Source: Pyrinomonadaceae bacterium
GTDB lineage: Bacteria > Acidobacteriota > Blastocatellia > Pyrinomonadales > Pyrinomonadaceae
DNA: 11,169 nucleotides
Direction of reading: 5' to 3'
Assembly (NCBI GenBank): GCA_013813825.1
Contig: JACCRA010000146.1
Span: forward strand, 1-11,169
Of this stretch, positions 614 through 11,143 are shown piece by piece. Position 1 is the first letter of the stretch, and every line of letters begins with the position of its first letter. Both the position numbers and the translations under genes were made by a program. The notes below the pieces were generated by a model. That model was not told where the DNA came from. It saw only the letters and a program-made list of their open reading frames with translations, and made no database searches.

Positions 614-712
614 CAGAGGAGAGGTCAGAGGTCAGAGATCAGAGGTCAGTAAAAGACAAGTTGCTTTTAGTTTTTACTGATCGCTGACTGCTGATCGCTG
701 ACCGCTGTTTAG
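614..712. repeat. Heptamer fold-back element E1 (leader of pyk)
   Basis: Positions 621-648 are four tandem 7-bp units of the type GAGGTCA (one reads GAGATCA). Positions 678-705 are four units of the type TGATCGC or TGACCGC, the approximate reverse complement. Inner blocks GTAAAAG (649-655) and TTTTTAC (671-677) also pair, leaving a 15-nt apex (656-670). Pairing of the outer units is imperfect, with 1-3 mismatches each, but the 7-bp register is kept. It fills most of the 164-bp gap between pyk and the upstream gene and so would lie in the leader of pyk, or between two cistrons if they are co-transcribed. No protein is encoded. Confidence 0.75.
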
Positions 713-766
713 ATTTTGACCGCAAATCGTTGGACTGCCGCCCGGCTACCGCCGCCGGAGCTAACA

Positions 767-1381
767 TTATTTGCCGCTTGCCACGGCCTTCGCAATTGCT
801 TGTTCAATCTTCGGTTGGTCAATGGCCTCAAAGCTGGAGAAGCGCGCGAGGACGCGGCCATCCGCGCCGAAGAGGACGGTGTAGGGAACGCCGACCACCC
901 CCTCCGCGTTGGGCGCGATGTAGAGCTTAAAAAGTTCGAGCGGCGACCAGACCACTTCGTTGTCGATGCCGGCCTCGCGGATGTACGCCTCGACTTTGTC
1001 GCCTTCGACGAACTGATTGTTCGACGCCATGTTGACTACCACCAAGCCCTTGTCGCGATACCGCTTCGCGAGGCCGGCGATGAACGGCGCGTGCTTCTGG
1101 CAGTGCGGACAGGTCGCGCTGAAGAAGTCGAGCAGCGCGATGCGCCCGCGCAAGGACGACAGGCGCAGCTTGGTCCCCTTGACGGTTTCCATCTCGAAAT
1201 CGGGGACGCCGGTTTGCGCGCCGCCCACGTCGTCAGCGCGCGGCAGTTGCGCGACCACGTCGGCGGGCGGCGCGCTCAACTTGGCGGCGCGAACGCTACG
1301 GACGAAACCCGGCACAACAGCGGCCAGCAGCAGCAGGCAGAGCAGCGCGGCGGCAAACATGGCTTTCGGTGAACGGAACAT
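767..1381 (-). CDS. Membrane-anchored thioredoxin-fold protein, TlpA-like, CPHC active site
   Basis: A 204-residue extracytoplasmic thiol-disulfide oxidoreductase of the TlpA/ResA/AhpC-TSA group. Residues 8-27 form a hydrophobic signal anchor or signal peptide with no lipobox. The redox site is DFFSATCPHCQKH with C91 and C94, and the cis-proline is in GVPYT (P166). The region between, with NMASNNQFVEGDKVEAYIREAG, is the TlpA/ResA-type insertion. CPHC is the dipeptide arrangement seen in DsbA, whereas TlpA and ResA usually carry CEPC or CPPC, so the redox potential may differ from its neighbour's. The start at 1381 has AAGGAG 11 nt upstream; a second Met at residue 8 is a possible alternative. 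It begins 37 bp after the end of another TlpA-like gene, so the two are probably one operon. The substrate cannot be told from sequence. Confidence 0.88.
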   Translation of the reverse strand: MFRSPKAMFAAALLCLLLLAAVVPGFVRSVRAAKLSAPPADVVAQLPRADDVGGAQTGVPDFEMETVKGTKLRLSSLRGRIALLDFFSATCPHCQKHAPFIAGLAKRYRDKGLVVVNMASNNQFVEGDKVEAYIREAGIDNEVVWSPLELFKLYIAPNAEGVVGVPYTVLFGADGRVLARFSSFEAIDQPKIEQAIAKAVASGK

Positions 1382-1418
1382 GTGGCGGAAAACTCCTTCA
1401 ATTTCTCTGGAAGATGCG

Positions 1419-2111
1419 TCAGTCGGTCGGCGCGGCGGCGGAGAGAGCGTCTTTGATCACTTGTTCGAGTTCGGTGGACGTTGAAGTGTCGTAGCCGACG
1501 AACCGCTTGGCGAGTCGTCCTGTGCGGTCAAAGATGTAAGTCTGCGGGATGGCGCTCGTGTCAGAAAAGTACAACTCGGACATCGCCTGATCCGGGTAGC
1601 CGAGCGGGTATTGGATACCGTACTGCTCGACGAAACCGGCGACCTTCGGGCGGTCTTCGTCACCGCCGACGTTGATGCCGACAACCTGTAAGCCCTGCGC
1701 GCCGTAGCGGCGTTGCAACGCGATGAGATGCGGCGTCTGCTCGCGGCACGGGGGGCAATAGGTGGCCCAGAAGTCGAGCACCAGCACTTGGCCGCGATAA
1801 TCGGCCGGACGCGCGCGCCGCCCGTCAAGCATCGTCCAGCCAACTTGCGACGTGGTCGCGCTTTGCGGCACAGGCACGCCGGTGTCCGAGCCGCGCGACG
1901 GCACGACCGGAATTGGCGGCATCGGCAGCGCCGTCTGTGGCGGCGTCGTTCCTGTAGGTGTTTTAGCAGCAGCCTGCTTTGCCGATTCCGGGATCGGCCG
2001 CGTCCGGCTACACGCCGCGCCGAGCGCCAGCGTCACGCACGCGACGAGGCACATCCGCGCTAGAGAAAAACGACGACACCGGAGTGCGCTTTGATGAGAG
2101 TGATGCGGCAT
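1419..2111 (-). CDS. TlpA/ResA-like thioredoxin-domain lipoprotein, CPPC active site
   Basis: A 230-residue thiol-disulfide oxidoreductase predicted to be lipid-anchored outside the cytoplasmic membrane. Basic residues (R11-R19) precede a hydrophobic run (20-32) ending LALGAAC; C34 is the likely lipidated cysteine, although Gly at -3 makes it an imperfect lipobox. A Pro/Thr-rich linker spans about 41-82. The thioredoxin domain follows, with VLDFWATYCPPCREQ (C119, C122), a GINVGGDEDRPKVAGFVEQ insertion typical of TlpA/ResA proteins, and cis-Pro P189 in AIPQTYIFD. Family members keep periplasmic cysteines reduced, for instance during cytochrome c maturation; no cytochrome genes are visible here, so the partner is unknown. 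The start at 2111 has GGAG 13 nt upstream; M20 is an alternative that keeps the signal peptide. It is the first gene of a probable pair with the CPHC protein downstream. Confidence 0.9.
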   Translation of the reverse strand: MPHHSHQSALRCRRFSLARMCLVACVTLALGAACSRTRPIPESAKQAAAKTPTGTTPPQTALPMPPIPVVPSRGSDTGVPVPQSATTSQVGWTMLDGRRARPADYRGQVLVLDFWATYCPPCREQTPHLIALQRRYGAQGLQVVGINVGGDEDRPKVAGFVEQYGIQYPLGYPDQAMSELYFSDTSAIPQTYIFDRTGRLAKRFVGYDTSTSTELEQVIKDALSAAAPTD

Positions 2112-2237
2112 TTGATTCGCGAAACTCCACGGATGGGAAACTCAGGCATTTTACACGAAGCGTGAAGTGAAGACGAAGCCCTTAAAACCAGAACCAAATT
2201 AGTCCTGACAAAATTTGGACGCATGGAAGAAAAGATG

Positions 2238-2315
2238 ATCCACAAATTTACGCGAAACGATGCGACAACCCGCGAAGAATGTCGTGCCACCTCGTTGGTG
2301 CGGTTTTGTGTCATC
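2238..2315. repeat. Degenerate fold-back element E2 upstream of the thioredoxin lipoprotein gene
   Basis: The 231-bp gap between yacG and the lipoprotein gene has no convincing gene. Inside it, GATGCGACAACCCGC (2259-2273) can pair imperfectly with GCGGTTTTGTGTCATC (2300-2315). More telling, positions 2238-2270 read on the plus strand match the minus strand of 11115-11147 (element E7) at about 24 of 33 bases, including a shared GAAACGA. It therefore looks like a decayed relative of E7. The period of 7 is only weakly visible here. Confidence 0.4.
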
Positions 2316-2342
2316 CAGCCGCCGGGCAAAATGCTCCGGACG

Positions 2343-2537
2343 TTAGAGTCGTTCGTCTGATGTCTGCGTCTCGCGCTGTTGGACGCCCCCTTCTGAAGGC
2401 GGGGCTTCGTCGGACGGCACGGCGTAGTTTTCATCTACCCAGTTGCCAAAGTCGATGAGCTTGCAGCGTTCTGAGCAGAACGGGCGGTATGGATTGTCTT
2501 TCTGGGTGGTTGGCCGGTCACAGTTCGGACATTTCAT
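2343..2537 (-). CDS. yacG: YacG-like zinc-binding protein (DNA gyrase inhibitor family)
   Basis: A 64-residue protein matching the YacG family, whose E. coli member is 65 residues long. In E. coli YacG binds GyrB and blocks DNA binding by gyrase; the role in other phyla is assumed rather than shown. Four cysteines form the zinc site: C3 and C6 in MKCPNC, and C21 and C25 in RPFCSERCK. The conserved run RPFCSERCKLIDFGNWVDE followed by YAVP is diagnostic. The C-terminus (from about residue 43) is polar and probably disordered. In proteobacteria yacG often lies beside coaE; here it stands between a Crp-like regulator and a thioredoxin lipoprotein, all on one strand. No clear Shine-Dalgarno precedes the ATG at 2537, but the start is fixed by the first cysteine pair. 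Confidence 0.93.
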   Translation of the reverse strand: MKCPNCDRPTTQKDNPYRPFCSERCKLIDFGNWVDENYAVPSDEAPPSEGGVQQRETQTSDERL

Positions 2538-2545
2538 AAAGCATG

Positions 2546-2631
2546 AAGGAAAAGGGGAGAGCTACAGGGACCAGCCGCAGTTTGAACTTTCGTTCAGTTC
2601 TGTGTGCCTCTGAACCTTTCCTCGCTTCCTT
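2546..2631. repeat. Possible degenerate fold-back element between the Crp-like gene and yacG
   Basis: AAGGAAAAGGGGAGAG (2546-2561) pairs with CTTTCCTCGCTTCCTT (2616-2631) at about 12 of 16 positions. A small hairpin, TGAAC with GTTCA around TTTC, sits between the arms near 2583-2596. It occupies the 114-bp spacer in the same manner as the clearer elements elsewhere in the window. The low-complexity purine and pyrimidine arms make chance pairing a real alternative. Confidence 0.3.
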
Positions 2632-2651
2632 GTTCCCCCTCGGTTTAGGTC

Positions 2652-3380
2652 TCAAGCGCCGGCCACTACTACTGCCGCGGCGGCGTGTGGTGGGTGCTTG
2701 ATTAAGATTTTGCGGTCAACGAAATCGATCATACCGGCGCGGCGCATGTCGTTCAAGCGGACGGTGATGCTTTCGCGAGTCGAGCCGACGATGGAAGCGA
2801 TTTCGCGGTGCGGTAAGGCGAGGTCGATCAACACGCCGTCGTCCGCGCACCGGCCGTACCTTTCTGAAAGCTCGGCGAGCAACTTTTCGAGTCGCGCCGG
2901 GATGGCGTCGAGCGCGAAGTCGGCGAGGCGGCGTTCGGCACGGGAGAGTCGTTGACCGAGCAGGCGGAAAGTGTAATCATAAAGCTCGCTACTTTCGGCC
3001 ATCAGTTGACGAAATTTCTCGACCGGAATTCGTAGCAGGCGTGCATTTTCATATGCCACCGCAGACATTTGCCGCGCCCCGGAAGCATAGAGCGCGAATT
3101 CGCCGAACAGTGATCCGGTCGGCAGAATGTCGATCACCGCTTCGCGACCCGTCCCCGGCTCGAGGCAGCATAGTTTGATGCGTCCGCGGGCGATCAGGTA
3201 GAGAGCGTCCGGCGTGTCGCCGGCCCGGTAGATGAAGCGCCGGCGGCGCACGTCCACGGCAAATGAGACGGAGGCGAACTCTCGGATCAGCGAGTCGGAA
3301 AGCGCCGCGCTCAATTCGGTGTGGCGGAGCAAGTTGGCGCGGTCGGGCGCGTTCAGATCGCAGGCTCTTCGGTGTGCCAT
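2652..3380 (-). CDS. Crp/Fnr-family transcriptional regulator
   Basis: A 242-residue regulator with the two-domain Crp/Fnr build. A cyclic-nucleotide-binding-type beta-roll covers about 25-130, with GDTPDALYLIARGRIKL and GSLFGEFALYASG (89-101) followed by R103. A dimerisation helix spans about 130-172. A winged helix-turn-helix at about 185-228 has LPHREIASIVGSTRESITV, including the recognition-helix Arg-Glu that in Crp contacts DNA. The N-terminus is about 20 residues longer than in typical members. The cysteines (C7, C71, C72, C178) are not arranged like the four Fe-S ligands of FNR, so oxygen sensing by that mechanism is unlikely. The cAMP-contacting Arg-Ser pair of E. coli Crp appears as Arg-Gln, so the ligand is uncertain. 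An AGAGGA lies about 13 nt before the ATG. It is divergent from the GGDEF regulator and upstream of yacG on the same strand. Confidence 0.93.
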   Translation of the reverse strand: MAHRRACDLNAPDRANLLRHTELSAALSDSLIREFASVSFAVDVRRRRFIYRAGDTPDALYLIARGRIKLCCLEPGTGREAVIDILPTGSLFGEFALYASGARQMSAVAYENARLLRIPVEKFRQLMAESSELYDYTFRLLGQRLSRAERRLADFALDAIPARLEKLLAELSERYGRCADDGVLIDLALPHREIASIVGSTRESITVRLNDMRRAGMIDFVDRKILIKHPPHAAAAVVVAGA

Positions 3381-3695
3381 GATGATGGGGGAATCCTCTA
3401 GCTCGTGTGGTCTGGGATAAGTTGTAATGTTAAGTCCGCGGCTGTAATAGCCTCGTCCGCAGGTAAGTTGTGAAACCGGTAGAAAATTACACGCGCAAGG
3501 ATTGACGGCGACGTGGGCGTTTCGGCTTTGAATTTTCGAGCGCGTCCGGGTGTGGAGCCAGAAGAAGCAAGGCGAAACTATAACCGGACTCGGACAAACG
3601 GCAACCGTCCTTGTTGATTCGGCACTCTAACATGAAGAATTAGCACGCGCAAGATATGTTTTTGGCCGCGAGTGAAATGAGCAAGTAGGGCGATT
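3381..3695. other. Divergent intergenic region between the Crp-like and GGDEF genes
   Basis: 315 bp without a supported gene; it must hold the start signals of two divergent genes. A 10-bp direct repeat, CACGCGCAAG, occurs at 3490-3499 and 3644-3653, each preceded by ATTA. A short hairpin GGCT-gtaat-AGCC lies near 3440-3452. On the minus strand a weak candidate promoter for the Crp-like gene is TTCACA with TATTAC 19 bp downstream. The GGDEF gene has only a weak TAGGG ribosome binding site. No heptamer fold-back element like those in other spacers was found here. Confidence 0.45.
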
Positions 3696-4706
3696 ATGTT
3701 AAGCAAATTTAAGATCCTGTTGGTTGATGACGACCCAGACAAGCGCCAGTTGCTGCGCTTCGCGTTGGAAGATCTGGCTGGCTTCTCGGTGCTGACGGCC
3801 AACGACGGCGTCGAAGGCTTGGCGGCGGTTAAGTCGCAGCAGATCGACCTCGTCATCACCGATGTGATGATGCCGCGGATGGACGGCTTCGAACTGGCGC
3901 GTTGCATTCGCGCCAATCCGCAGACCCGCTTCATCCCGATCATCATCCAGACCGCCGCGCGCGGCACTGCCCACGACTTGCGGCAGGGCGCGGAGGCCGG
4001 CGCTCTCGGCTACATCACTGATCCGACCGATCTCGATCTGCTAATAGCGCGCGCACACACGCTGCTCGACTTCAAAAACTACCTCGACTCGTGCGAAGAG
4101 GCGGCGTTTATCGATCACCTGACGGGGCTAGCGAACCGCCGCCGCTTCGAGCGCCAGTTGGCACGTGAAGCGTCGCGCACGCAGCGCTACGGCCGCCCGT
4201 TCTGCCTGCTGCTTGTCGATGTCGATCTCTTCAAAGACATCAACGACACATACGGGCACGAGGTGGGAGACGAGGCGCTCAGACAGTTGGGGAGCACGTT
4301 GCAAGTCGGGACGCGAGGCATCGACACTGCGGCGCGCATCGGCGGCGACGAGTTCGCCGTGATTCTGACCGAGACGGACTATGCCTTCGGCCTCGAAGTC
4401 GCTGAACGCCTGCGCCTCGCGATCAAACAGATCAGAGTGCCGGACGGCGGCGGGGCGCTAACGGCGAGTCTGGGCTTGGCTGAATTTTCCCACGCGCTGC
4501 TGGACGGCCGCGAACTGGTGGCCGCCGCCGACGCCGCCCTCTATGAGGCAAAACGACAAGGGCGCGACCGCGTCGTCGGACACACACCCGCCGCGCCTGA
4601 GGAGGCGAACTCGTCTCCGGCGCGCGGCGTATCAACAAGGCAGGGACGCGGATGGGATGAGGGCGGTGGGCGGTGGGATGATAGAAGAGAAGGCAGCAGG
4701 GAGTAA
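3696..4706 (+). CDS. Response regulator with REC and GGDEF domains (diguanylate cyclase)
   Basis: A 336-residue cytoplasmic response regulator predicted to make c-di-GMP from two GTP. The receiver domain (about 5-125) has the acidic cluster D11-D12-D13, phospho-acceptor D56 in VITDVMMP, and T86 in IIQTAA. The usual Lys of the LTKP motif is absent: the text is YITDPTD with D109 in that place. The GGDEF domain (about 136-290) has DHLTGLANRRRFERQ, VDVDLFKDINDTYGH and an intact GGDEF at 216-220. R207-x-x-D210, five residues ahead, is the inhibitory c-di-GMP site. ALYEAKRQGRDRV closes the domain. The last 45 or so residues are low-complexity; from about residue 319 they are encoded by a heptamer repeat array, and the stop codon lies inside the left arm of a hairpin. 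Catalysis looks intact; control by phosphorylation may be unusual. Confidence 0.94.
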   Translation: MLSKFKILLVDDDPDKRQLLRFALEDLAGFSVLTANDGVEGLAAVKSQQIDLVITDVMMPRMDGFELARCIRANPQTRFIPIIIQTAARGTAHDLRQGAEAGALGYITDPTDLDLLIARAHTLLDFKNYLDSCEEAAFIDHLTGLANRRRFERQLAREASRTQRYGRPFCLLLVDVDLFKDINDTYGHEVGDEALRQLGSTLQVGTRGIDTAARIGGDEFAVILTETDYAFGLEVAERLRLAIKQIRVPDGGGALTASLGLAEFSHALLDGRELVAAADAALYEAKRQGRDRVVGHTPAAPEEANSSPARGVSTRQGRGWDEGGGRWDDRREGSRE

Positions 4707-4766
4707 GCAGCCAGAGCGGTTCTTATTTCTATTTACTGCCTGCTGCCTTCTACCTGTTCCTCATTC
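4654..4766. repeat. Heptamer fold-back element E3 (3' end of the GGDEF gene)
   Basis: AGAAGGCAGCAGGGAGTAAG (4688-4707) pairs with TTTACTGCCTGCTGCCTTCT (4732-4751) at 18 of 20 positions, with a 24-nt apex. Outside the left arm, 4654-4681 is four 7-bp units in the order A-B-B-A (A is GGGATGA, B is GGGCGGT). The right flank up to about 4766 carries matching pyrimidine-rich sequence. The TAA of the GGDEF gene (4704-4706) is within the left arm, and the strong ribosome binding site of the next gene begins six bases after the right flank ends. The hairpin could slow transcription or protect the upstream transcript, but it lacks a T-tract. Confidence 0.8.
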
Positions 4767-4771
4767 TTTTC

Positions 4772-4785
4772 GAGGAGGTTTCATG
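4772..4785 (+). promoter_or_regulatory. Strong Shine-Dalgarno deciding the start of the coiled-coil membrane protein
   Basis: GAGGAGG at 4772-4778 lies 4 nt before the ATG at 4783. It selects this ATG over in-frame upstream codons reaching back to 4543, which would overlap the GGDEF gene by more than 160 bp and read through the E3 repeat. Confidence 0.85.
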
Positions 4786-5778
4786 GCTGATTATCGAGAT
4801 CGGTTGGAAGAGTGGCGCGAGACGGCGCGGCGCAAGGCGCGCGAGCTTGACGACAAGTACAAAATCAAGGATCGCGTCGAGGAGAGCGCGCGGGCGGCGC
4901 AGGAGGCGGCGAAGCGCGGCGCGTCGCGGGTCTTGAGCGAAGCGGAGCGAGCGCGCGCCGAGGCCGAGCGCCTGAGCGAAGAGTTTGAGGTGGGCGAGCG
5001 CACCGGCGAAGTGCGCGAGCAGGCGCACTATGCGGCGGCCGAGGCCGCGCGTTCGGCACGCGACGCGGGCGAGCGTTTGCGCGATGCCGGGCGCACCGCT
5101 GGCGAGCGAGCAGGCGAGGTTTTCGGCGAAGCGAAAACTTACTACCGCCGCGCCGCGCGAGCTTACGATGTCAGTTCGCGCGCGACGCGGGCGACTTCCG
5201 CCGCCGGTATTGGTCTCTTCAAAGTTTATGATTGGGCGCGGACGAATCCGAAGCAGGCCGTAATGGTTTCGCTCTCGGTGGCGGCGGGCGTGCAGTTGGG
5301 CGCGTCTTTCCCGCGGCTCGACGCCGTGCTGCTCGGCGCGCACCCGCACTGGTTCACGCACTCGGCCCTACCCGTTTGGGCGATGCGGCGCGCGGGTGTG
5401 AAGTTCGACAGTTATTTGCGCGAACGTGAAGAGTTGATCGGGCGCGGCGAGTTAACCGAAGCCGAGCGCAAGCGCGCGGCGTTTGAGCGCAACATCGTCC
5501 GCTACGTCGGCGCGCCGCTTTTGGGCGCGTTCAGTTGCGCGGCGGGCGTCGCCATCTGCGCGCAAATCTTTCAACCGGGCCGCATCGTCGGCGCGCCCAT
5601 CAGTTGGCTGCTTGGCGGCAACCCGGTGCTCGACGGCATCTGGCTCTTCGCCAACGGAGTGATCTGCATCCAGCAGGGCTACAAGTTTTTCATGATCGCC
5701 CTCAGGGACCAGCAGGACGCGCAGCGCATCGTGCGCGAACTGAAAGGGCTATTGCCTACCGCTTCGGCGACCGCCTGA
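4783..5778 (+). CDS. Unrecognised Ala/Arg/Glu-rich coiled-coil membrane protein
   Basis: A 331-residue protein I cannot assign to a family. Residues 1-140 are very rich in Ala, Arg and Glu with a helical, amphipathic pattern (for example AREKARELDDKYK-like stretches near the start and AEAERLSEEFEVGERTGEV further on), resembling coiled-coil, LEA-like or apolipoprotein-like sequences. A GERAGEVFGEAK segment near 110 looks like LEA-type repeats. Then come three hydrophobic segments: about 159-175 (QAVMVSLSVAAGVQLGA), 242-264 (GAPLLGAFSCAAGVAICAQIF) and 282-306. A charged stretch, FDSYLREREELIGRGELTEAERKR, lies between the first two, and the C-terminus ends in a short charged helix. A plausible picture is a long helical domain tethered to the membrane. 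It follows the diguanylate cyclase gene by 76 bp on the same strand, so co-transcription is possible, but that alone does not show a shared role. Confidence 0.8.
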   Translation: MADYRDRLEEWRETARRKARELDDKYKIKDRVEESARAAQEAAKRGASRVLSEAERARAEAERLSEEFEVGERTGEVREQAHYAAAEAARSARDAGERLRDAGRTAGERAGEVFGEAKTYYRRAARAYDVSSRATRATSAAGIGLFKVYDWARTNPKQAVMVSLSVAAGVQLGASFPRLDAVLLGAHPHWFTHSALPVWAMRRAGVKFDSYLREREELIGRGELTEAERKRAAFERNIVRYVGAPLLGAFSCAAGVAICAQIFQPGRIVGAPISWLLGGNPVLDGIWLFANGVICIQQGYKFFMIALRDQQDAQRIVRELKGLLPTASATA

Positions 5779-5811
5779 GCATAGCAACAGAACATACACT
5801 TTAAGAAAGTT

Positions 5812-5846
5812 AAAGGCGGGTTGGCCGGGCGGGCCAATCTGCCTTT
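5812..5846. terminator. Bidirectional hairpin terminator between convergent genes
   Basis: AAAGGCGGGTTGGCC (5812-5826) pairs along all 15 positions, two of them G-U, with GGCCAATCTGCCTTT (5832-5846) around a 5-nt loop. On the plus strand CGCTTTGTT follows. On the minus strand the stem is followed by the T-rich AACTTTCTT. It sits in the 154-bp gap between the coiled-coil membrane gene and the end of the site-2 protease gene, so it can serve both. The stem is compact and GC-rich, unlike the heptamer fold-back elements. Confidence 0.7.
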
Positions 5847-5932
5847 CGCTTTGTTGCCCGGTGCAATGTCGACAAATCGAAACACGCGAGAGTAACGGAG
5901 TTGCAGGGGCTGTGGCTTGATGTAGTTCGATT

Positions 5933-7036
5933 TTAGGTGATCGTGATCGGGAACAACTCGAAGGAGAGGAGAAAGACGATGAGCGTGAGCAAGGCAGCGA
6001 GGAGCCGCGTAGCGCCGAGGGGCTGCGCTTCGTCCATCGCCGGCGGGTGGCGCACGCGGAGCATGATGAATAGAAGGATCGCGTAGAGAAAGCCGCTTGG
6101 CGTGTGATGACGGGTCCAGCCGAGGACGGCGCTGGCGGCCATCACGGCGAACGCCGCGCGTCCTGCCCACCAATGTACGCGCGGACCCAAGACAGCGAAA
6201 ACGGCATGTCCTCCGTCGAGTTGTCCGACTGGTAGCAAGTTCAGACTCGTTACCAGCAGCCCGATCCACGCGGCCATGAACAGAGGGCTGATCGCTGCCG
6301 TCTCGATCGGCACGCCGAGCGCGCCGGCCAGCAGACGCAACAGCGGTTGCTCGTGAAAGATGATGCTGCCGGCCGCGACTGACGACGGTCCAGGCTGCGC
6401 CCACAGCACGGCGGCGATGGCGATGGGGACGATGACGATGAAGCCGGCGAGCGGCCCGGCGACGCCAATGTCGAAGAGTGCGCGGCGGTTCGGGATCGGC
6501 GACTTGATTTTGATGAATGCGCCGAACGTGCCGGCGAGAAAAAGCGGCGGGGCGGGCAGGAAGAAGGGCAGTGTCGCGTCCACGCCGTAGCGGCGGCAGG
6601 CGATGTAGTGGCCGGCCTCATGCGCTAAAAGAATCGACAGCAGCGCGACCGCGAACGTCATGCCTTGTGCCAGCAAATCGGGACGCGCGGCGGCATGTTT
6701 AATAAGCGCCCAGACTGCGGAGAGATAAACGGCCGGAAGGTAGGAAAGGTAATCGATCCACTCGACAGGCGGGGCGATCTCCGGCTCGCTGAGTTGGCTG
6801 AAGTCAGCGGAGAGCATGACGCCCGAGAGCGTCGCCGTTAGAAAAGTCAGCAGGAACAGTCCCGCGTGTCGCCCCCACGCGCGCGCGGTCGGTCGCTTAG
6901 AAACCGCGCCGGGTGGCAGGTGTCGAGTGACGGATGCATGAGCCGGAAATGGTAAAAGCGAAGCGGCTCTTCCGCGCGCTCCGCTTGGCTGGTGGTTGGC
7001 TGACGCCCCCTCTGCGATCTGCTCGTCACTCGTCAC
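5933..7036 (-). CDS. Site-2 protease family intramembrane zinc metalloprotease (M50)
   Basis: A multi-pass membrane metalloprotease that cuts substrates within the bilayer, as in regulated intramembrane proteolysis. The zinc motif is LLAHEAGHYIACRRYG with H139, E140 and H143. The third-ligand motif is NLLPVGQLDGGH with D274. PFFLPAPP, GTFGAFIKIKSPIPNRRALFD and GVAGPLAGF match the EGY-like branch found in cyanobacteria, plants and several bacterial phyla; no PDZ domain is present. A first membrane segment, LFLLTFLTATLSGVM (about 60-74), also fits that branch. The start is uncertain: GTG at 7036 lies inside the right arm of repeat element E5, and no ATG, GTG or TTG occurs in frame between the element and residue 74. 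Starting at M74 would delete the conserved first segment, so the repeat-encoded N-terminus (about 41 residues) is probably translated. The gene begins 19 bp after HU, so the two are likely co-transcribed. Confidence 0.92.
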   Translation of the reverse strand: MTSDEQIAEGASANHQPSGARGRAASLLPFPAHASVTRHLPPGAVSKRPTARAWGRHAGLFLLTFLTATLSGVMLSADFSQLSEPEIAPPVEWIDYLSYLPAVYLSAVWALIKHAAARPDLLAQGMTFAVALLSILLAHEAGHYIACRRYGVDATLPFFLPAPPLFLAGTFGAFIKIKSPIPNRRALFDIGVAGPLAGFIVIVPIAIAAVLWAQPGPSSVAAGSIIFHEQPLLRLLAGALGVPIETAAISPLFMAAWIGLLVTSLNLLPVGQLDGGHAVFAVLGPRVHWWAGRAAFAVMAASAVLGWTRHHTPSGFLYAILLFIMLRVRHPPAMDEAQPLGATRLLAALLTLIVFLLSFELFPITIT

Positions 7037-7050
7037 TTGTCACTCGTCAC
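6913..7050. repeat. Heptamer fold-back element E5 (overlaps the start of the S2P gene)
   Basis: Positions 7023-7050 are four 7-bp units, three TCGTCAC and one TTGTCAC. Positions 6913-6933 are three units of the type GTGACGG or GTGTCGA, the approximate reverse complement (about 17 of 21 in the best register). The roughly 90-nt apical region contains GTAAAAGCGAAGCGGCTCTT (6952-6971), which resembles the cores of E1 and E6 on the same strand. Unlike the others, this element lies mostly inside a reading frame: the first 41 or so codons of the site-2 protease. Confidence 0.65.
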
Positions 7051-7055
7051 CGTTC

Positions 7056-7400
7056 TTAAAATTCCGGCAGCCGCGGTGCGGCTTCGGGCGCGGCGGTGTC
7101 GTGCAGATCGGAGTTGTCGTCTTCGGCCTCAAAGCCGTGGGCTTGAAGTTCCTTGCCGGGCTTGAAGCGGATGGTCATGCCCGAAGGGATGGCGACTTCT
7201 TCGCCGGTGCGCGGGTTGCGCCCCACGCCGCGCTTACGCGGCTTGACGACGAAGACGCCGAAGCCGCGCAGTTCAATGCGCTCGCCGCGCGCCAGCGCCT
7301 CTTTCATCGAATGAAAGAGGGCATCCACGGCCTGCTCGGCCTTCATCTTCGGGACGCCCGTGCGATCCGCGACGCGGTTGACGATGTCGAGTTTGATCAC
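7056..7400 (-). CDS. HU/IHF-family DNA-binding protein with acidic C-terminal tail
   Basis: A nucleoid-associated protein of the HU/IHF family, which bends DNA as a dimer. Residues 1-88 make a full-length HU fold: MIKLDIVNRVADRTG opens helix 1; RIELRGFGVFVVKPRKRGVG (41-60) and RNPRTGEEVAIPSG (61-74) form the beta arm, with P63 the intercalating proline; IRFKPGKEL ends the domain. Typical HU proteins are about 90 residues, but this one has 114. The extra 25 residues contain the acidic run EAEDDNSD and end PRLPEF; the extension is acidic, unlike the Lys-rich tails of some actinobacterial HU proteins. The start is GTG at 7400 with AGGAG 4 nt upstream; a nearby ATG is out of frame and stops at once. 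The assignment to HU rather than an IHF subunit rests on the single gene and is not certain. Confidence 0.93.
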   Translation of the reverse strand: MIKLDIVNRVADRTGVPKMKAEQAVDALFHSMKEALARGERIELRGFGVFVVKPRKRGVGRNPRTGEEVAIPSGMTIRFKPGKELQAHGFEAEDDNSDLHDTAAPEAAPRLPEF

Positions 7401-7452
7401 GCTGCTCCTGTTGCCTCCATCTCACAAAACGCGCCCTCGAAAATGTTCAAGC

Positions 7453-7582
7453 AAGCGTTCAGCGTTCAGCTATCAGCCAGTCACCTGCGGTGCGGCTCGT
7501 TCATCTTCGCGCTTCGTGTCTGGGGGCGCCGCGCGAGTTATCTTGTTTTCGCTGAAAGCTGAAAGCCGATGGCTGAACGCTT
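7453..7582. repeat. Heptamer fold-back element E4 (leader of the HU gene)
   Basis: AAGC followed by units GTTCAGC, GTTCAGC and TATCAGC (7453-7477) faces units GCTGAAA (twice), GCCGATG, GCTGAAC and then GCTT (7551-7582). The outer 11 bp, AAGCGTTCAGC, pair perfectly; over 25 positions about 21 match in the 7-bp register. The apical region is about 70 nt and GC-rich. It lies between the predicted HU promoter (7631-7660) and the HU start, so it should be transcribed as part of the HU 5' leader. Confidence 0.7.
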
Positions 7583-7630
7583 ACAATGTTAAAGCCTAGT
7601 CAGCAAGCGCGTTACCCATTACCTGAGCCG

Positions 7631-7660
7631 ATAATAGAGACGCGCCGCAAAGCCTGTCAA
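7631..7660 (-). promoter_or_regulatory. Sigma70-like promoter for the HU gene
   Basis: Read on the minus strand: TTGACA (7660-7655), an 18-bp spacer, then TATTAT (7636-7631). The -35 is perfect and the -10 is one base from consensus. It would start transcription near 7624, giving an HU leader of about 220 nt that contains element E4. Confidence 0.65.
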
Positions 7661-7693
7661 GGATGAGCCGTGGCGAGCCTCCGAGTCCTCGCG

Positions 7694-7723
7694 TTGACAA
7701 AGCGCGCGGCGGGCGGCTAACCT
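7694..7723 (+). promoter_or_regulatory. Sigma70-like promoter for lepB
   Basis: TTGACA (7694-7699), an 18-bp spacer, then TAACCT (7718-7723), which keeps the most conserved T, A and final T of the -10 box. The predicted start near 7730 is about 40 nt before the lepB ATG. It lies back to back with the HU promoter, the two -35 boxes being 33 bp apart. Confidence 0.5.
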
Positions 7724-7770
7724 CGATTTTCGCTTCCCCGATGCATTAACTAGTGAAGAATTAAGAGCTT

Positions 7771-8469
7771 ATGTTCAGACGTAAAAGCCGCAGCCCGGCC
7801 TTCGGCGACATCTCCTCCGCTGACGATCGCGGCATCGAAGTGCAACACCTTGACCTCGAATCGCGGCGCCACTTCTGGGCTGAGTCGCGCTTGCTGGCGC
7901 GCGATCTGGTCTTCGCCCTGATGGTTGCCGCCCTCTTCATCGTCTTTGTCGTTCAGCCGGTCAAGGTCGAAGGCACGTCAATGCTGCCGCGCCTGCATGA
8001 CGGCGAGCGTATCTTCGTCAACAAACTCGTTTACTATCACTGGCCGAAGCTGGAGCGCGGCGACATCGTCGTCTTCTGGTTCCCGGACGACCCAGACAAG
8101 AGTTATATCAAGCGCGTCATCGGTTTGCCCGGCGAGTTAGTTGACGTGCGCGAAGGCCGCATCCGCGTCAACGGGCAGGAGTTGAACGAGCCGTATCTCG
8201 ATCCGCAGTTGAACCTCGCGCGCCTCAACCACCCGCCCACCGTCGTTAAGCCGCATTATTATTTTGTGATGGGCGACAACCGCGATCATTCGAGTGACTC
8301 GCGCTTCTGGGGATTGGTTCCTGAAAAATATATCTATGGCAAGGCGCTGCTGCGCTACTGGCCGCTCTCCGAGGCCAACATCATCTCGCATGAGACGGAT
8401 TACGCGCTGACCGCGCCCGACCCCAACGCACCCGTCCCCAACTCCGTCGAGACGGAGGAAGAACCTTAA
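7771..8469 (+). CDS. lepB: Signal peptidase I
   Basis: A 232-residue type I signal peptidase, the serine protease that removes signal peptides from exported proteins at the outer face of the cytoplasmic membrane. A cytoplasmic N-terminal stretch of about 43 residues precedes a single membrane anchor at about 44-61 (RDLVFALMVAALFIVFVV). Box B, VEGTSMLPRLHDG, supplies the nucleophile S70. Box D, RGDIVVFWFPDD then YIKRVIGLPGE, supplies the general base K114. Box E, GDNRDHSSDSRFWG, is intact. The C-terminus is an acidic, Pro-rich tail. Length and architecture are usual for the family. An AAGAG lies just before the ATG. It is the first gene of a probable lepB-TPR-carA unit behind the promoter at 7694-7723. 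Many bacteria carry several lepB paralogues, so this may not be the only one. Confidence 0.96.
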   Translation: MFRRKSRSPAFGDISSADDRGIEVQHLDLESRRHFWAESRLLARDLVFALMVAALFIVFVVQPVKVEGTSMLPRLHDGERIFVNKLVYYHWPKLERGDIVVFWFPDDPDKSYIKRVIGLPGELVDVREGRIRVNGQELNEPYLDPQLNLARLNHPPTVVKPHYYFVMGDNRDHSSDSRFWGLVPEKYIYGKALLRYWPLSEANIISHETDYALTAPDPNAPVPNSVETEEEP

Positions 8470-8470
8470 A

Positions 8471-8560
8471 GGCAGTGAGCAGTAGGCAGTAAGCAGTTAA
8501 AAACAAATTGCTTCGCTTGCTCGCTGTTCACTGCTCACTGCCTACTGCTCACTGCTCATT
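8471..8560. repeat. Heptamer fold-back element E6 (fills the lepB-TPR gap)
   Basis: The clearest element in the window. The left arm (8472-8499) is four units of the form GCAGTGA, each differing by one or two bases. The right arm (8528-8555) is four units of the form TCACTGC or CTACTGC. Paired outer to inner in strict register, 26 of 28 positions match: GCAGTAG pairs exactly with CTACTGC, and the innermost pair is also exact apart from one base. The apex contains TTAAAAACAAATTGCTTCGC (8497-8516). It begins two bases after the lepB stop and ends six bases before the next ATG. Confidence 0.88.
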
Positions 8561-8565
8561 AAACG

Positions 8566-9870
8566 ATGATCGACTGGTTGAGGCCGCTACTCTTGATGTT
8601 TTACGCGCCGGCGCGCGGGTTGGGCGAAGCGCGCGAGGGCGTGTCGTTGCGCGGTGCCGCGTTGCTGGCCTTGTTAATGCTCGGCGGGTTGTTGTTGTTT
8701 ACGCAGTGGCCCTACTTCGGCTCCTCGTTCGCTCCGTGGAATGCCTTCGTGGCCGTCAGGATGCTAATTAGTTCGGCCGGCTTACTGCTCTTTCTGGCGT
8801 TGGTGTTTGTGCCCCTGCTGATTGTTTTCGCCAACCTGTTCGACCGGCGCGCGAGCGTCGGGCTGGCGTTGCGGCAGGAGTACCCAGCGGTGGCAACGGC
8901 CATCAGCTACGCACTGGCGGCGGCTGTGGTAGTGGGTTTCGTGGCGGTCGCGGCGGCACGTTACAGCGGCGTTGAAGCTTGGTTTCAGCACGGGTCCCGG
9001 CAATTCTTTGAATTGGGGATCGCGCAAAATCAGGTGTCCCCGGAAGTGGCGACGCTACTCATGGAGCAGTCGGAGTTGACGGGAAGTTTGATGCTGATGC
9101 TGTCGGCGATGCTGCCACCGTTTGCGCTCTGGGCGGTGGCTGCGGCGCGCGAGGCGTTGCGTCTGACATGGGGGCGGGCGGTGGTGGTCGTCGTTGCGAG
9201 CGGCGTACTAACGATTACCATCTCGCCGATCATCTCTTTCCTCAGCGCACTCCTCGCCTCGCCGTTCCTGCTCGTCCTCCTCGTCCTGTTTCTGCGCGGC
9301 TACCTCAATGAGTTGGCGGGTCACCAGCGCGCCCGCGCCGCCTTCAAGCAGAACCTTGAAGCGGCGACTCTCAACCCGGCCGACTCTTCGGCGCATTACA
9401 ACCTCGGCCTGCTCTACCTGCAACGTAAGGAAGTGAACGAGGCGCGCGACCGCTTCCGCCGCGCCATCGAGATCGACGCCGACGAGATCGACGCCCATTA
9501 CCAACTTGGCCGCATCAGCCGCGAGCAGGGGCGTGACGCCGACGCCATCAAGCACTTCGAGCAAGTGGTCGAGCGCGACGACCGTCACGCGCAGCACGAA
9601 GTATGGCGCGAGATCGGTGCCACCTACCTCGCCGCCGGCCAATTCGCCGACGCCCGCGACGCGCTCGCACGCTTCCTCGACCGCCGCGAGAACGATCCCG
9701 AAGGCTTGTATCTGATGGGGCGCTCTCTGGCCGGCCTGCATTTGCCCGGCGACGCCGCCGCCGCGATGCGTGCCTGCATCGAAGCCGTCAAGACCGCGCC
9801 CGCTTATAAATACCGCGCCGAGAAACGCTGGCTCAACGAAGCGCAGCAGTTTTTGCGCTCACAGGCGTGA
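8566..9870 (+). CDS. Yip1-like membrane domain fused to TPR repeats
   Basis: A 434-residue membrane protein with two parts. The N-terminal 245 residues open with a Yip1-type segment (LLLMFYAPARGLGEAREG) and hold about five hydrophobic segments, near 30-46, 64-90, 106-130, 172-197 and 206-245. From about 260 on there are at least four tetratricopeptide-like repeats: the first two read SSAHYNLGLLYLQRKEVNEA and IDAHYQLGRISREQGRDADA, and later ones include EIGATYLAAGQFADARDALA and LYLMGRSLAGLHLPGDAAAA. TPRs bind protein partners, so a membrane-anchored assembly or quality-control role is reasonable, but no specific function can be assigned. No Shine-Dalgarno is visible: the right arm of E6 and then TTAAACG lead straight into the ATG. 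It lies between lepB and carA and may be co-transcribed with both. Confidence 0.85.
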   Translation: MIDWLRPLLLMFYAPARGLGEAREGVSLRGAALLALLMLGGLLLFTQWPYFGSSFAPWNAFVAVRMLISSAGLLLFLALVFVPLLIVFANLFDRRASVGLALRQEYPAVATAISYALAAAVVVGFVAVAAARYSGVEAWFQHGSRQFFELGIAQNQVSPEVATLLMEQSELTGSLMLMLSAMLPPFALWAVAAAREALRLTWGRAVVVVVASGVLTITISPIISFLSALLASPFLLVLLVLFLRGYLNELAGHQRARAAFKQNLEAATLNPADSSAHYNLGLLYLQRKEVNEARDRFRRAIEIDADEIDAHYQLGRISREQGRDADAIKHFEQVVERDDRHAQHEVWREIGATYLAAGQFADARDALARFLDRRENDPEGLYLMGRSLAGLHLPGDAAAAMRACIEAVKTAPAYKYRAEKRWLNEAQQFLRSQA

Positions 9871-9882
9871 TCGGTCACGCCT
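9863..9882 (+). other. Hairpin spanning the TPR gene stop, before carA
   Basis: AGGCGTGA (9863-9870) and TCACGCCT (9875-9882) are perfect inverted repeats around TCGG, a stable tetraloop-sized turn. The TGA stop is part of the left arm. GATTTAGTTC follows, a poor T-tract, so it could be a weak terminator, an attenuator ahead of carA or simply an end-of-cistron hairpin. Confidence 0.45.
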
Positions 9883-9895
9883 GATTTAGTTCACA

Positions 9896-11008
9896 ATGGC
9901 GGACATCAACATTAAACCGGCGCTACTCGCGCTGGAGGACGGCCGCACGTTTCGCGGGCGCGCATGGGGCGCGGAGGGCGAAGTGTGCGGCGAGATGGTC
10001 TTTAACACGTCGATGTCGGGCTATCAGGAAGTCCTCACCGATCCGTCCTACGCGGGGCAGATCGTGTGCATGACCTATCCGCTCATCGGCAACTACGGCG
10101 TAAACGAACAAGACGCGGAGTCGGCCCGGCCATGGGTCGAAGGTTTCGTGGTGCGCGAAGCGAGCCGGACGGCGTCAAACTGGCGAGCCGAGGAGACGCT
10201 CGATGCGTACCTCAAGCGTTGGCGCGTCGTCGCTATCGATCACATCGATACGCGCTCTCTGGTGCGGCACATCCGGGATCGGGGCGCGATGCGGGCGTGT
10301 CTCTCAAGCGTCGATCTGGACGCGGAGAGTTTGATCGCGAAAGCGCGGGCGGCGGAGCGGATGGAAAATCGGGAACTGGCGAGCGTCGTCACGACCGCGC
10401 AGGCCTACGAAGTACCGGCGGAAGGCGCGGAGCGTTTTCACGTCGTCTGCTATGACTTCGGCGTTAAGATGACTTCCCTGCGCGAGTTCGCGCGGCTGGG
10501 CTGCCGCGTGACGGTAGTGCCCGCCGCGACGCCGGCGGCGAGCGCTCTGGCTTTGCAACCCGACGGCATCTTCCTCTCGAACGGACCGGGCGATCCGGCG
10601 TCGATGACGCAGGTGGTGGAAGAGATTCGCCGCGTCGCCGAATCCGGCGTCCCGATCTTCGGCATTTGCTTCGGCCATCAACTGCTGGGTCGCGCTTTCG
10701 GCGGCCAGACCTATAAGCTCCGCTTCGGCCACCGTGGCGGCAACCAGCCGGTACGAGACAATTTGACCGGCGCGATTGAGATCACCTCGCACAATCACGG
10801 CTTCGCGGTCCGGGCCGAGAGTTTGCCGCCCGAGATGGAAGTCACGCACGTCAACCTCAATGATGACTGCGTCGAAGGCATGAGCCACCGGCTCTTGCCG
10901 ATCATCTCCGTCCAATATCACCCGGAAGCCGCGCCGGGCCCGCACGACGCCGCCCACCACTTCCTCCGCTTCATCGAACTGATGGAAAAAGCCGGTGCCG
11001 GAAGTTAG
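9896..11008 (+). CDS. carA: Carbamoyl-phosphate synthase small subunit (glutaminase)
   Basis: The small subunit releases ammonia from glutamine and channels it to CarB, which makes carbamoyl phosphate for pyrimidine and arginine synthesis. The 370 residues comprise the N-terminal CPSase small-chain domain ([54 protein letters not shown]) and a class I glutamine amidotransferase domain from about 181. The catalytic triad is C258 in [10 protein letters not shown] with H342 and E344 in QYHPE, matching E. coli C269, H353 and E355. FLSNGPGDP is also present. Length is normal. It begins 25 bp after the TPR gene and lacks an obvious Shine-Dalgarno; a hairpin sits just ahead. carB is not visible in the 161 bp left in the window, though it may lie further on. 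Confidence 0.96.
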
Positions 11009-11091
11009 AGGAAACGTGTACAGGCCAGTGCCGCTTACAGCGCGTGCGGGCTTGCTTGTGTGGCCGGAGCCGCGCCAGTGAAATTCAAGTT

Positions 11092-11143
11092 ACGAAATGA
11101 CATGAAAATAAAAACCTCTTCGCGTCGTTTCGTGTCATTTCGT
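11092..11143. repeat. Fold-back element E7 downstream of carA
   Basis: ACGAAATGACATGAAA (11092-11107) pairs with TTTCGTGTCATTTCGT (11128-11143) at 15 of 16 positions around a 20-nt apex that includes AAAAACCTCTTCGCG. Read on the minus strand, 11115-11147 resembles 2238-2270 (E2). It is the only feature in the 161 bp after carA, where no gene is supported. The following ATAAATTTTTAAC gives a short T-run, so on the plus strand it could double as a terminator for carA. Confidence 0.75.

Follow-up and report, generated by a model that had tools for sequence, protein, structure and literature searches.

The DNA analyzed here, referred to as the window, is an 11,169-nt stretch of a Pyrinomonadaceae genome. 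It includes genes for a thioredoxin-fold protein (AhpC/TSA), a GGDEF response regulator, an M50 peptidase, HU, a signal peptidase, a TPR protein and CarA, and its 2149 spacer bases contain five hairpins with arms phased at 7 nt. The features are as follows:

620-707, unstranded: heptamer fold-back element; left arm of AGAGGTC/AGAGATC units, right arm of GCTGAYC-type units, GCTTTT in the loop; lag-7 match 0.57, RNA fold z -5.5
4688-4755, unstranded: heptamer fold-back element, array weak and stem strong; identified from the window scan and address occupancy in relatives
6910-7050, unstranded: decayed heptamer fold-back element with GTGACRA units, right arm CTCGTCACTCGTCACTTGTCACTCGTCAC; M50 peptidase/HU gene spacer
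7454-7581, unstranded: heptamer fold-back element with a long loop (~80 nt), units AGCGTTC / GCTGAAA; divergent HU-signal peptidase spacer
8472-8558, unstranded: heptamer fold-back element with AGTRAGC units; RNA fold z -8.9
11092-11143, unstranded: inverted repeat of period 10 (TRF), outside the heptamer class; 3' of carA; lag-7 match 0.22

The five hairpins were detected by scanning, at lenient thresholds, for a lag-7 array with an inverted partner. The same scan returned no hairpins in 300 shuffled sets of the window spacers, zero at periods of 5, 6, 8, 9 and 11, and one at a period of 10. Self-matching of the spacers at lag 7 was 0.329, compared with 0.252 in dinucleotide shuffles (z 6.4), and was the highest among lags 2-21, followed by lags 14 (z 3.35) and 10 (z 3.15). 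A preliminary description of this DNA had proposed heptamer-phased fold-backs in its spacers, with units that differ between loci, and had named shuffled spacers as the standard of comparison. Both lag-7 matching and arm complementarity exceeded the shuffles, and the units do differ; the proposal holds for five hairpins but not for 11092-11143, which does not belong to the class because its period is 10 and its lag-7 match is only 0.22.

The weak element at 4688-4755 and the decayed element at 6910-7050 (left arm down to about one unit; the reversed sequence used as its control is in turn a heptamer unit, belonging to a different family) were accepted because orthologous spacers in other genera carry heptamer hairpins. 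The address of the former held a hairpin in all six array-rich genomes with data, the window's own genome counted, and that of the latter was filled in all eight with data, by several families. The element at 8472-8558 begins 3 nt past the stop codon of the signal peptidase gene (8469), and its other end lies 8 nt short of the TPR gene start (8566); its address was filled in seven of nine array-rich genomes. Of the five hairpins, 7454-7581 had the weakest fold (z -2.2). Element 4688-4755 overlaps the 3' end of the GGDEF gene and the gap before the next plus-strand gene, and 620-707 has as neighbors the thioredoxin-fold gene and the gene at the low end of the window, both on the minus strand. 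Rfam 15 gave no matches in the window at gathering score. Searches of a plasmid collection returned nothing for 7005-7060 and 614-712 and one record for 8472-8558, the retrieved stretch of which contains single-direction arrays; 8472-8558 had no match in a phage collection.

Beyond the window, lag-7 arrays in spacers again outnumbered those in shuffles, in keeping with the scan suggested in the preliminary description: 19 versus 0 in the window's own genome (205.6 kb sampled on 48 of 819 contigs), 71 versus 0.4 in G019, and 80 versus 0 in G014. Across samples from seven relatives, the window's own genome among them, 219 hairpins of period 7 were counted, compared with 0-21 at each of six other periods, and the mirrored element class first suspected in the window is therefore real. 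Arms measured ~32 bp and the loop 17 nt, with a median element of 76-104 nt, and 18 sequence families had at least two members. Tandem 7-bp units in spacers are the mark of heptamer simple sequence repeats, but the single-direction arrangement that the preliminary description gave for STRR was not the rule here: 415 of 453 arrays sat in a hairpin with the partner within 250 nt, and 38 were lone. Density ranged from 0 to 2.8 hairpins per 10 kb; among sparse relatives, none was found per 100 kb in G021, one in G012, three in G008 and six in G002. Among the matches listed, the AATCGTG-unit element of G019 matched dozens of places in either of two species of its genus (~78-93% identity), so that searches by sequence identity do find families, contrary to what had been supposed; the same multi-unit arms were likewise found again, among the matches listed, at dozens of loci and in several genera. 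On this sequence evidence, the heptamer hairpins are dispersed elements.

The elements were placed relative to genes using starts and orientations from a purpose-made codon-usage gene model, preferred over longest open reading frames because the latter place starts at element edges. Addresses lay mainly just past a gene's 3' end and within narrow gaps separating co-directional neighbors. Across four genomes, elements were present in 145 of the 415 spacers between co-directional genes, compared with 19 of 73 for convergent and 11 of 90 for divergent pairs, and in the 145 co-directional cases they started at a median of 4 nt past the stop codon. After the element length was subtracted, 54 of 115 gaps of 0-30 nt were filled, versus 13-18% of those above 60 nt. 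Of 141 co-directional cases, 51 had the element no more than 12 nt from the predicted start of the next gene; only one of these 51 retained a Shine-Dalgarno-like motif there, versus 136 of 447 element-free spacers, the element itself occupying the region.

Such placement could reflect selection for the hairpin: an address may need an intercistronic or terminal stem (for 3'-end protection, termination, or coupling or uncoupling), any strong stem would serve, and occupants would change freely. The start just past the stop, the excess of co-directional over divergent spacers, the near-absence of Shine-Dalgarno-like motifs beside near-start elements and the retention of addresses across genera are all consistent with this account. 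Against it, the wobble signature of RNA pairing was absent from the sense strand, where mismatches showed the reverse tendency (119 G.U versus 156 A.C, p 0.03; in tight gaps only, 93 versus 113, p 0.19), and selection on RNA-level pairing was rejected; sparse relatives are almost without elements, and at one address both neighbors are tRNA genes. We consider hairpin selection doubtful as an alternative, but it is compatible with the replacement explanation developed below and would supply its selection.

Comparison of orthologous spacers demonstrated that hairpin addresses between genes stay fixed across species, including species of different genera. Between G019 and G041 (86% identity), 83 orthologous spacers (40-600 nt; 8 dropped for a gap of >800 nt in G041) had a hairpin in both genomes in 25 cases, in neither in 49, and in one only in 4 + 5; strict thresholds gave 23, 50 and 4 + 6. 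With one genome per genus, 121 of 161 pairs at 30 addresses were concordant, versus 87.5 when permuted (0/5000) and 90.9 after stratification by orientation and residual gap (0/3000), in a test whose array-rich genomes were picked for array-rich samples, G013 and G005 (mostly empty at the tested addresses) being excluded. The test scored any lag-7 hairpin, and a GC palindrome in the HU-signal peptidase spacer of G040 and G041 therefore counted as present. When all sampled genomes were included, sparse ones among them, hairpins were in both in 109 pairs, in neither in 263, and in one only in 226 and 22 (pairs not independent).

Fixed addresses might also arise by independent, repeated insertion at preferred sites, namely short gaps just past stops, with no replacement. 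The higher occupancy of tight gaps is as expected from such parallel insertion, as is one address without a hairpin in two species but with one in a third. However, concordance held after stratification, and the seven co-directional addresses that were tight in every genome with data, few as they are, divided into four all-empty, two all-filled and one mixed. Moreover, only 9 of the 83 G019/G041 spacers were discordant; under parallel insertion, the preferred sites would therefore have to be near saturation while other spacers stayed empty. Parallel insertion is, in our judgment, unlikely.

While addresses persisted, their occupants changed; all exchange comparisons were between species, and family names at 86% and 94.6% identity were assigned by eye. 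For G019 and G041, 42 of 70 G019 hairpins were comparable (segments >450 nt excluded), four of them without a recognized G041 hairpin, although some have one by eye. In the resulting 38 orthologous pairs (one of which, 304506, is a GC palindrome), 25 fell under a similarity of 0.35 and were classed as dissimilar. Three of these (92792, 96481 and 107268) have, by eye, the same outer family and are set apart by a nested hairpin; the other 22 are outright different families. In a set of 22 dissimilar pairs that includes 96481 and 107268, the flanks were homologous up to a median of 6 and 7 nt from the arms on the left side and 3 and 3 nt on the right side; by this alignment, exchange is demonstrably confined to within a few nucleotides of the arms. 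A species pair at 94.6% identity had another family at three of nine addresses, where whole cassettes differed, loops included, between flanks 94-98% identical. One of the three is the 88-nt spacer separating two tRNA-Ser genes, where three species carried three different families. One occupant kept its flanks but had its loop inverted. Hairpins at orthologous addresses nonetheless resembled one another more than random occupants did (0.313 versus 0.177; 0/2000), and therefore about one third look inherited. Nested hairpins were present, which indicates that insertion into the loop also occurs; nesting followed by decay was rejected as the main route of exchange. At two addresses, the flanks retain traces of the hairpin found in the other species, but such traces occurred in just 2 of 49 dissimilar comparisons, hardly more often than in the control (4% versus 1.4%, score 12). 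At four G041 addresses with gene-length segments, no common enzyme was seen by eye; one of them also has a hairpin.

Two further accounts have to be set against this exchange. If the arrays were generated in situ, polymerase slippage would build them, hairpin-templated correction would mirror them, and units would drift locally while nothing moved. Slippage has been proposed for heptamer repeats (Mrazek et al. 2007, as recounted in passages of PMC4679880 and PMC4692102), and arms within one element resembled each other more closely (0.757) than arms taken from separate elements belonging to one family and genome (0.706; 0/1000, n = 148), the former figure being biased upward because the element's own base pairing was used to set the arm borders. 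The recurrence of the same multi-unit arms at dozens of loci in several genera, and the occurrence of different whole cassettes between flanks that are 94-98% identical, make in-situ generation very improbable. Alternatively, because all 12 named relatives found are titled as metagenome-assembled genomes, the pattern could be an artefact of assembly. The exchanged addresses, however, keep both flanks and gene order, such hairpins occur in records of several accession prefixes, and the elements (median 76-104 nt) are shorter than usual sequencing reads; an artefact is hardly credible.

The preliminary description had found mobility unsupported. The absence of short target duplications agrees with that view, but occupant exchange at orthologous sites and the many dispersed copies argue for movement. 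In 236 elements, flanking repeats of 4 nt (48 versus 42.7 permuted), 5 nt (13 versus 12.4) and 6 nt (6 versus 3.6) revealed no target duplication, and thus not the target-site duplication of DDE-type MITEs at these lengths; longer repeats were in small excess (7 nt, 4 versus 0.95; 8 nt, 3 versus 0.2). Among the arrays of the sampled draft assemblies, no loop was seen to carry the gene of an autonomous copy. The 38 lone arrays included three long-range inverted pairs, which enclosed no transposase by eye in these drafts, each covering part of its genome. Insertion sequences tend to drop out of draft assemblies.

As short palindromes dispersed past gene ends, the elements also recall REP sequences and REPINs, which are moved by RAYTs (Y1 transposases), and PF01797 (RAYT) matched in 20 of 24 genomes searched (G019, G040 and G041 were left out). 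However, array-rich G009 (91% complete), with 10 hairpins in its 50.6-kb sample, lacked a match, and matches were more numerous in the three sparse genomes covered, G008 (15), G012 (13) and G002 (9), than in array-rich G014 (4), G001 (3) and G000 (2). RAYT was therefore rejected as carrier. A GTAG/CGTC tag lay within 7 nt outside the foot, on either strand, in only 11 of 236 elements. The REP systems described in part in PMC3733652 share short, dispersed spacer palindromes with the Pyrinomonadaceae hairpins, which differ in having 7-bp-phased arms; neither a GTAG/CGTC tag nor dependence on RAYT was found in them, and a REP origin is highly unlikely.

A closer likeness is found in IS1272, which, in the portions of Wan et al. 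(2017; PMC5678879) considered here, removes inverted repeats of varied sequence and size and substitutes a hairpin-ended element, no target duplication being reported there for new insertions. In Pyrinomonadaceae, as far as sequence comparison alone tells, one hairpin similarly takes the place of another without a 4-6-nt duplication. In IS1272, though, the incoming DNA is a 1.9-kb insertion sequence with a transposase, whereas the cassettes here are gene-less and ~85 nt. Nor is an IS1182-family enzyme, the IS1272 kind, consistently present: the model NF033551 scored above cut-off in one of 18 genomes (G000) and had no match in G009, G040, G041 or G170, genomes with many elements or pattern matches. 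IS1182 was rejected as carrier on these counts.

Our best explanation, to which we give nearly an even chance, is that the elements are short, non-autonomous fold-back cassettes of two mirrored arms, about four heptamers each, and a short loop, and that the hairpin type at a fixed address is repeatedly exchanged for a family also present elsewhere in the genome, by structure-directed replacement resembling the stem-loop-replacing transposition of IS1272. A hairpin or cruciform extruded at the address would be the target; a transposase-like enzyme acting in trans would excise the resident hairpin and put another hairpin cassette in its place, rather than insert repeatedly, and the address would persist while its sequence turned over. 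It is also possible, at somewhat less than an even chance, that this is a new replacement system recognizing hairpin shape and not sequence, in which unrelated heptamer cassettes compete for fixed addresses and a newcomer cleanly evicts the occupant; addresses would be long inherited and occupants would turn over within a few percent divergence.

Among longer simple repeats, heptamers form the commonest category in most of the genomes that have been examined (Mrazek et al. 2007, via passages of PMC4679880 and PMC4692102). The sections of Rehm et al. (2015; PMC4692102) drawn on here describe intergenic arrays, mostly of four units, of GGGAATC in Xanthomonas and GGGGA(C/T)T in Nostoc; they lie closer to the upstream gene, and most have the same flanking genes in two strains, with very variable length and sequence. 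Like the Pyrinomonadaceae hairpins they are intergenic and heptameric, and the two Xanthomonas strains have 70 and 75 inverted pairs, a precedent for mirrored heptamer arrays. According to those sections, one G-rich unit type per organism was studied and read as quadruplex-forming; Pyrinomonadaceae have 18 multi-member unit families, arrays largely in hairpins, and families that substitute for each other at an address. The TAACTGA repeats of Beggiatoaceae and others are also intergenic, with two to six copies adjoining coding sequences (MacGregor 2015; PMC4679880), but in the text available they comprise 169 direct sets and one indirect, of one unit, mostly just 5' of start codons.

The new point is a behavior: addresses are shared while hairpin families change. 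Mobile and repetitive DNA is usually followed by sequence at varying positions; here position is conserved and sequence is not. Replacement by shape, if true, would carry the IS1272 precedent over to gene-less cassettes and to the scale of the whole genome, and would help to explain why sequence-changing heptamer arrays recur between the same genes, as in Xanthomonas. The location of addresses just past stops, often over the expected ribosome-binding site of the next gene, raises a question about operon expression in Acidobacteriota. A stop codon within a unit recurs in every frame because 7 is not a multiple of 3, and stops in all three plus frames of an arm were found in 114 of 240 elements, a modest excess over phase-permuted arms (86, sd 5.9).

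The window is the entire contig C407 of its own draft genome (G000; 3.96 Mb in 819 contigs). Its genes, with Pfam assignments, and its hairpins with arms phased in 7-bp units are the following:
two thioredoxin-fold (AhpC/TSA) proteins
CRP-type regulator
GGDEF response regulator
M50 peptidase
HU-type protein
signal peptidase, S26, lepB-like
TPR protein
carbamoyl-phosphate synthase small chain
4783-5778, the one protein of the window with no Pfam match
620-707, hairpin with 7-phased arms
4688-4755, hairpin with 7-phased arms
6910-7050, hairpin with 7-phased arms
7454-7581, hairpin with 7-phased arms
8472-8558, hairpin with 7-phased arms

No 7-phased hairpin arose in 300 shuffled spacer sets, compared with these five in the window's real spacers. 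The lag-7 self-match (match at a 7-nt offset) that the preliminary description expected to exceed dinucleotide shuffles did so in the window spacers, with z of 6.4, the highest of lags 2-21. That description had extended a single class of elements across 614..11143; the five hairpins bear this out in part, but 11092-11143 is an inverted repeat of period 10 and was excluded from the heptamer class. This last hairpin, downstream of carA and with units TTTCGTGTCA, is a different repeat type and may have a family of its own.

The wider scan of the genome and its relatives proposed at the same time, performed on samples, placed lag-7 arrays in spacers far above shuffles: 19 in the sample of G000, 71 in G019, 80 in G014, and 45 in further relatives, as compared to 0, 0.4, 0, and 0 in the respective controls. 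Lags besides 7 and 14 yielded at most 6 arrays in these samples. Period-7 hairpins numbered 219 (including a few GC palindromes) in samples from seven genomes totaling 1.19 Mb, in which periods 5, 6, 8, 9, 10, and 11 gave 0, 19, 21, 9, 5, and 2. Hairpin density per 10 kb was 0.78 in G000, 1.73-2.8 across the array-rich G019, G041, G040, G014, G001, and G009, and 0-0.6 in the sparse G021, G012, G008, and G002. All 12 named relatives found are titled MAG; G014 and G010 belong to the same family as G000, taken here to be Pyrinomonadaceae. Of 396 genomes from the phylum, 14 contain the exact pattern GTGACRA, in a search without a clean control since the reversed pattern is itself another heptamer unit. 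The top count, 60 forward and 60 reverse matches, was in G170, from another family of the phylum.

In a catalogue of 240 elements, the median stem was 32 pairs, with 89% of stem positions pairing, and the median loop 17 nt. Clustering of 226 elements by sequence gave 27 clusters, 18 with at least two members, and several of these spanned at least three genera. Nested elements, a whole heptamer hairpin within the loop of another, were observed at L099:15572-15705 and at several addresses in G041, where the inner hairpin was, by eye, mostly of AATCGTG type.

The addresses of the hairpins, that is, the orthologous spacers in which they reside, are shared among relatives. The two genus-mates of G019, namely G040 and G041, are 86.1 and 86.2% identical to it. 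Across 83 orthologous spacers of G019 and G041, a hairpin was present in both genomes in 25, in neither in 49, and in one only in 4 and 5 (23, 50, 4, and 6 at strict thresholds). Among nine array-rich genomes, using 57 addresses with data in at least three genomes, 313 of 379 pairs were concordant versus 191 (sd 9.9) when permuted within genomes. Restricting the set to a single genome from each genus (30 addresses) gave 121 of 161 concordant pairs versus 87.5 (sd 6.3). Neither count was matched in 5000 permutations. Stratification by gene orientation and residual gap left 121 versus 90.9 (0 of 3000 permutations). Three window addresses filled in G000 were also filled in most array-rich genomes: M50-HU in 8 of 8 with data, GGDEF-next gene in 6 of 6 with data, and signal peptidase-TPR in 7 of 9 (G000 included in each). 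TPR-carA and CRP-GGDEF were filled in 0 of 6 and 0 of 5 with data.

Position relative to genes was examined in four genomes, using codon-usage gene calls and spacers of at least 60 nt. Among the 415 co-directional spacers 145 held an element, as did 19 of the 73 convergent and 11 of the 90 divergent ones. Co-directional elements began a median of 4 nt past the stop codon (quartiles -5 and 13), and residual gaps of 0-30 nt, with the element subtracted, were filled in 54 of 115 cases. In 51 of 141 cases, no more than 12 nt separated an element from the next start; a Shine-Dalgarno-like motif was left in only one of these 51, versus 136 of 447 element-free spacers.

The occupants of these addresses are far less constant. 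Among the 38 G019/G041 pairs where both genomes have a hairpin, 13 reached a similarity of 0.35, which is above chance (7.8% of non-orthologous pairs), and 25 fell below it. By eye, three of the 25 (92792, 96481, 107268) have the outer family in common and differ by a nested hairpin, and thus 22 are outright different. In 22 dissimilar pairs from a second set, overlapping partly with the first, flanks aligned to within medians of 6 and 7 nt of the arms on the left side and of 3 nt on the right side. Between G040 and G041 (94.6% identity; aligned blocks totaling 72.6 kb), placement was possible for ten hairpins, one of them a GC palindrome. In the HU-signal peptidase spacer of these two species (G040:C126:8750), a GC-rich palindrome, GCCGCGCGCC, was nearly unchanged, unlike the heptamer hairpins. 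Of the nine other placed hairpins, three kept their family, one did so with a loop that is flipped against its flanks (score 34 of 44 inverted, 8 direct), one differed by a nested hairpin, three had a different family, and one address was empty in G041 and G019. The inverted 44-nt loop belongs to a GTCCGTT-type element (G040:C79, ~11704, and its G041 orthologue) with collinear flanks at 94.6% identity. One of the addresses with an exchanged family is a gap of 88 nt from tRNA-Ser(CGA) to tRNA-Ser(GGA), where three species carry three different families.

Such occupant differences are not the work of point mutation. The ordinary identity of the flanks speaks against recombination that brought in a tract of some distant relative. 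We looked for target duplications of 4-6 nt at the elements and found none; no REP tag was established beside them, no requirement for RAYT (the Y1 transposase of REP sequences) emerged in genomes with elements, stems bore no RNA wobble signature, and the sampled genome parts held no autonomous copy. Given these results, structure-directed exchange of hairpins would fit best. Staphylococcal IS1272 is reported to take out the inverted repeat at its target and occupy its place without duplication (PMC5678879); the likeness lies in that replacement, the difference in its transposase family (IS1182), not consistently present here. Parallel insertion into preferred gaps is a possible alternative. 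So is selection that favours a hairpin at each address; such selection is compatible with replacement, and both may act together.

Heptamer arrays have been described in cyanobacteria, Xanthomonas, and Beggiatoaceae (PMC4679880, PMC4692102). The preliminary description had set mirrored arrays apart from known single-direction ones; the arrays here are mirrored, but so are array pairs reported from Xanthomonas, where the majority of repeats sit between the same genes in both strains compared and vary greatly in sequence (PMC4692102). Searches covering few subscription journals found no literature pairing 'Acidobacteria' with 'heptanucleotide' and, among the titles and beginnings of abstracts listed, no account of hairpin families being swapped for one another at fixed addresses. 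A plasmid of Sulfurovum mangrovi (Campylobacterota; NZ_CP087125.1, L206) carries seven tandem TGCTCAC units, then TATTTCC units, at ~36802-36865; its arrays run in a single direction, four places of the record match, and TGCTCAC is also the unit of the window element at 8472-8558.
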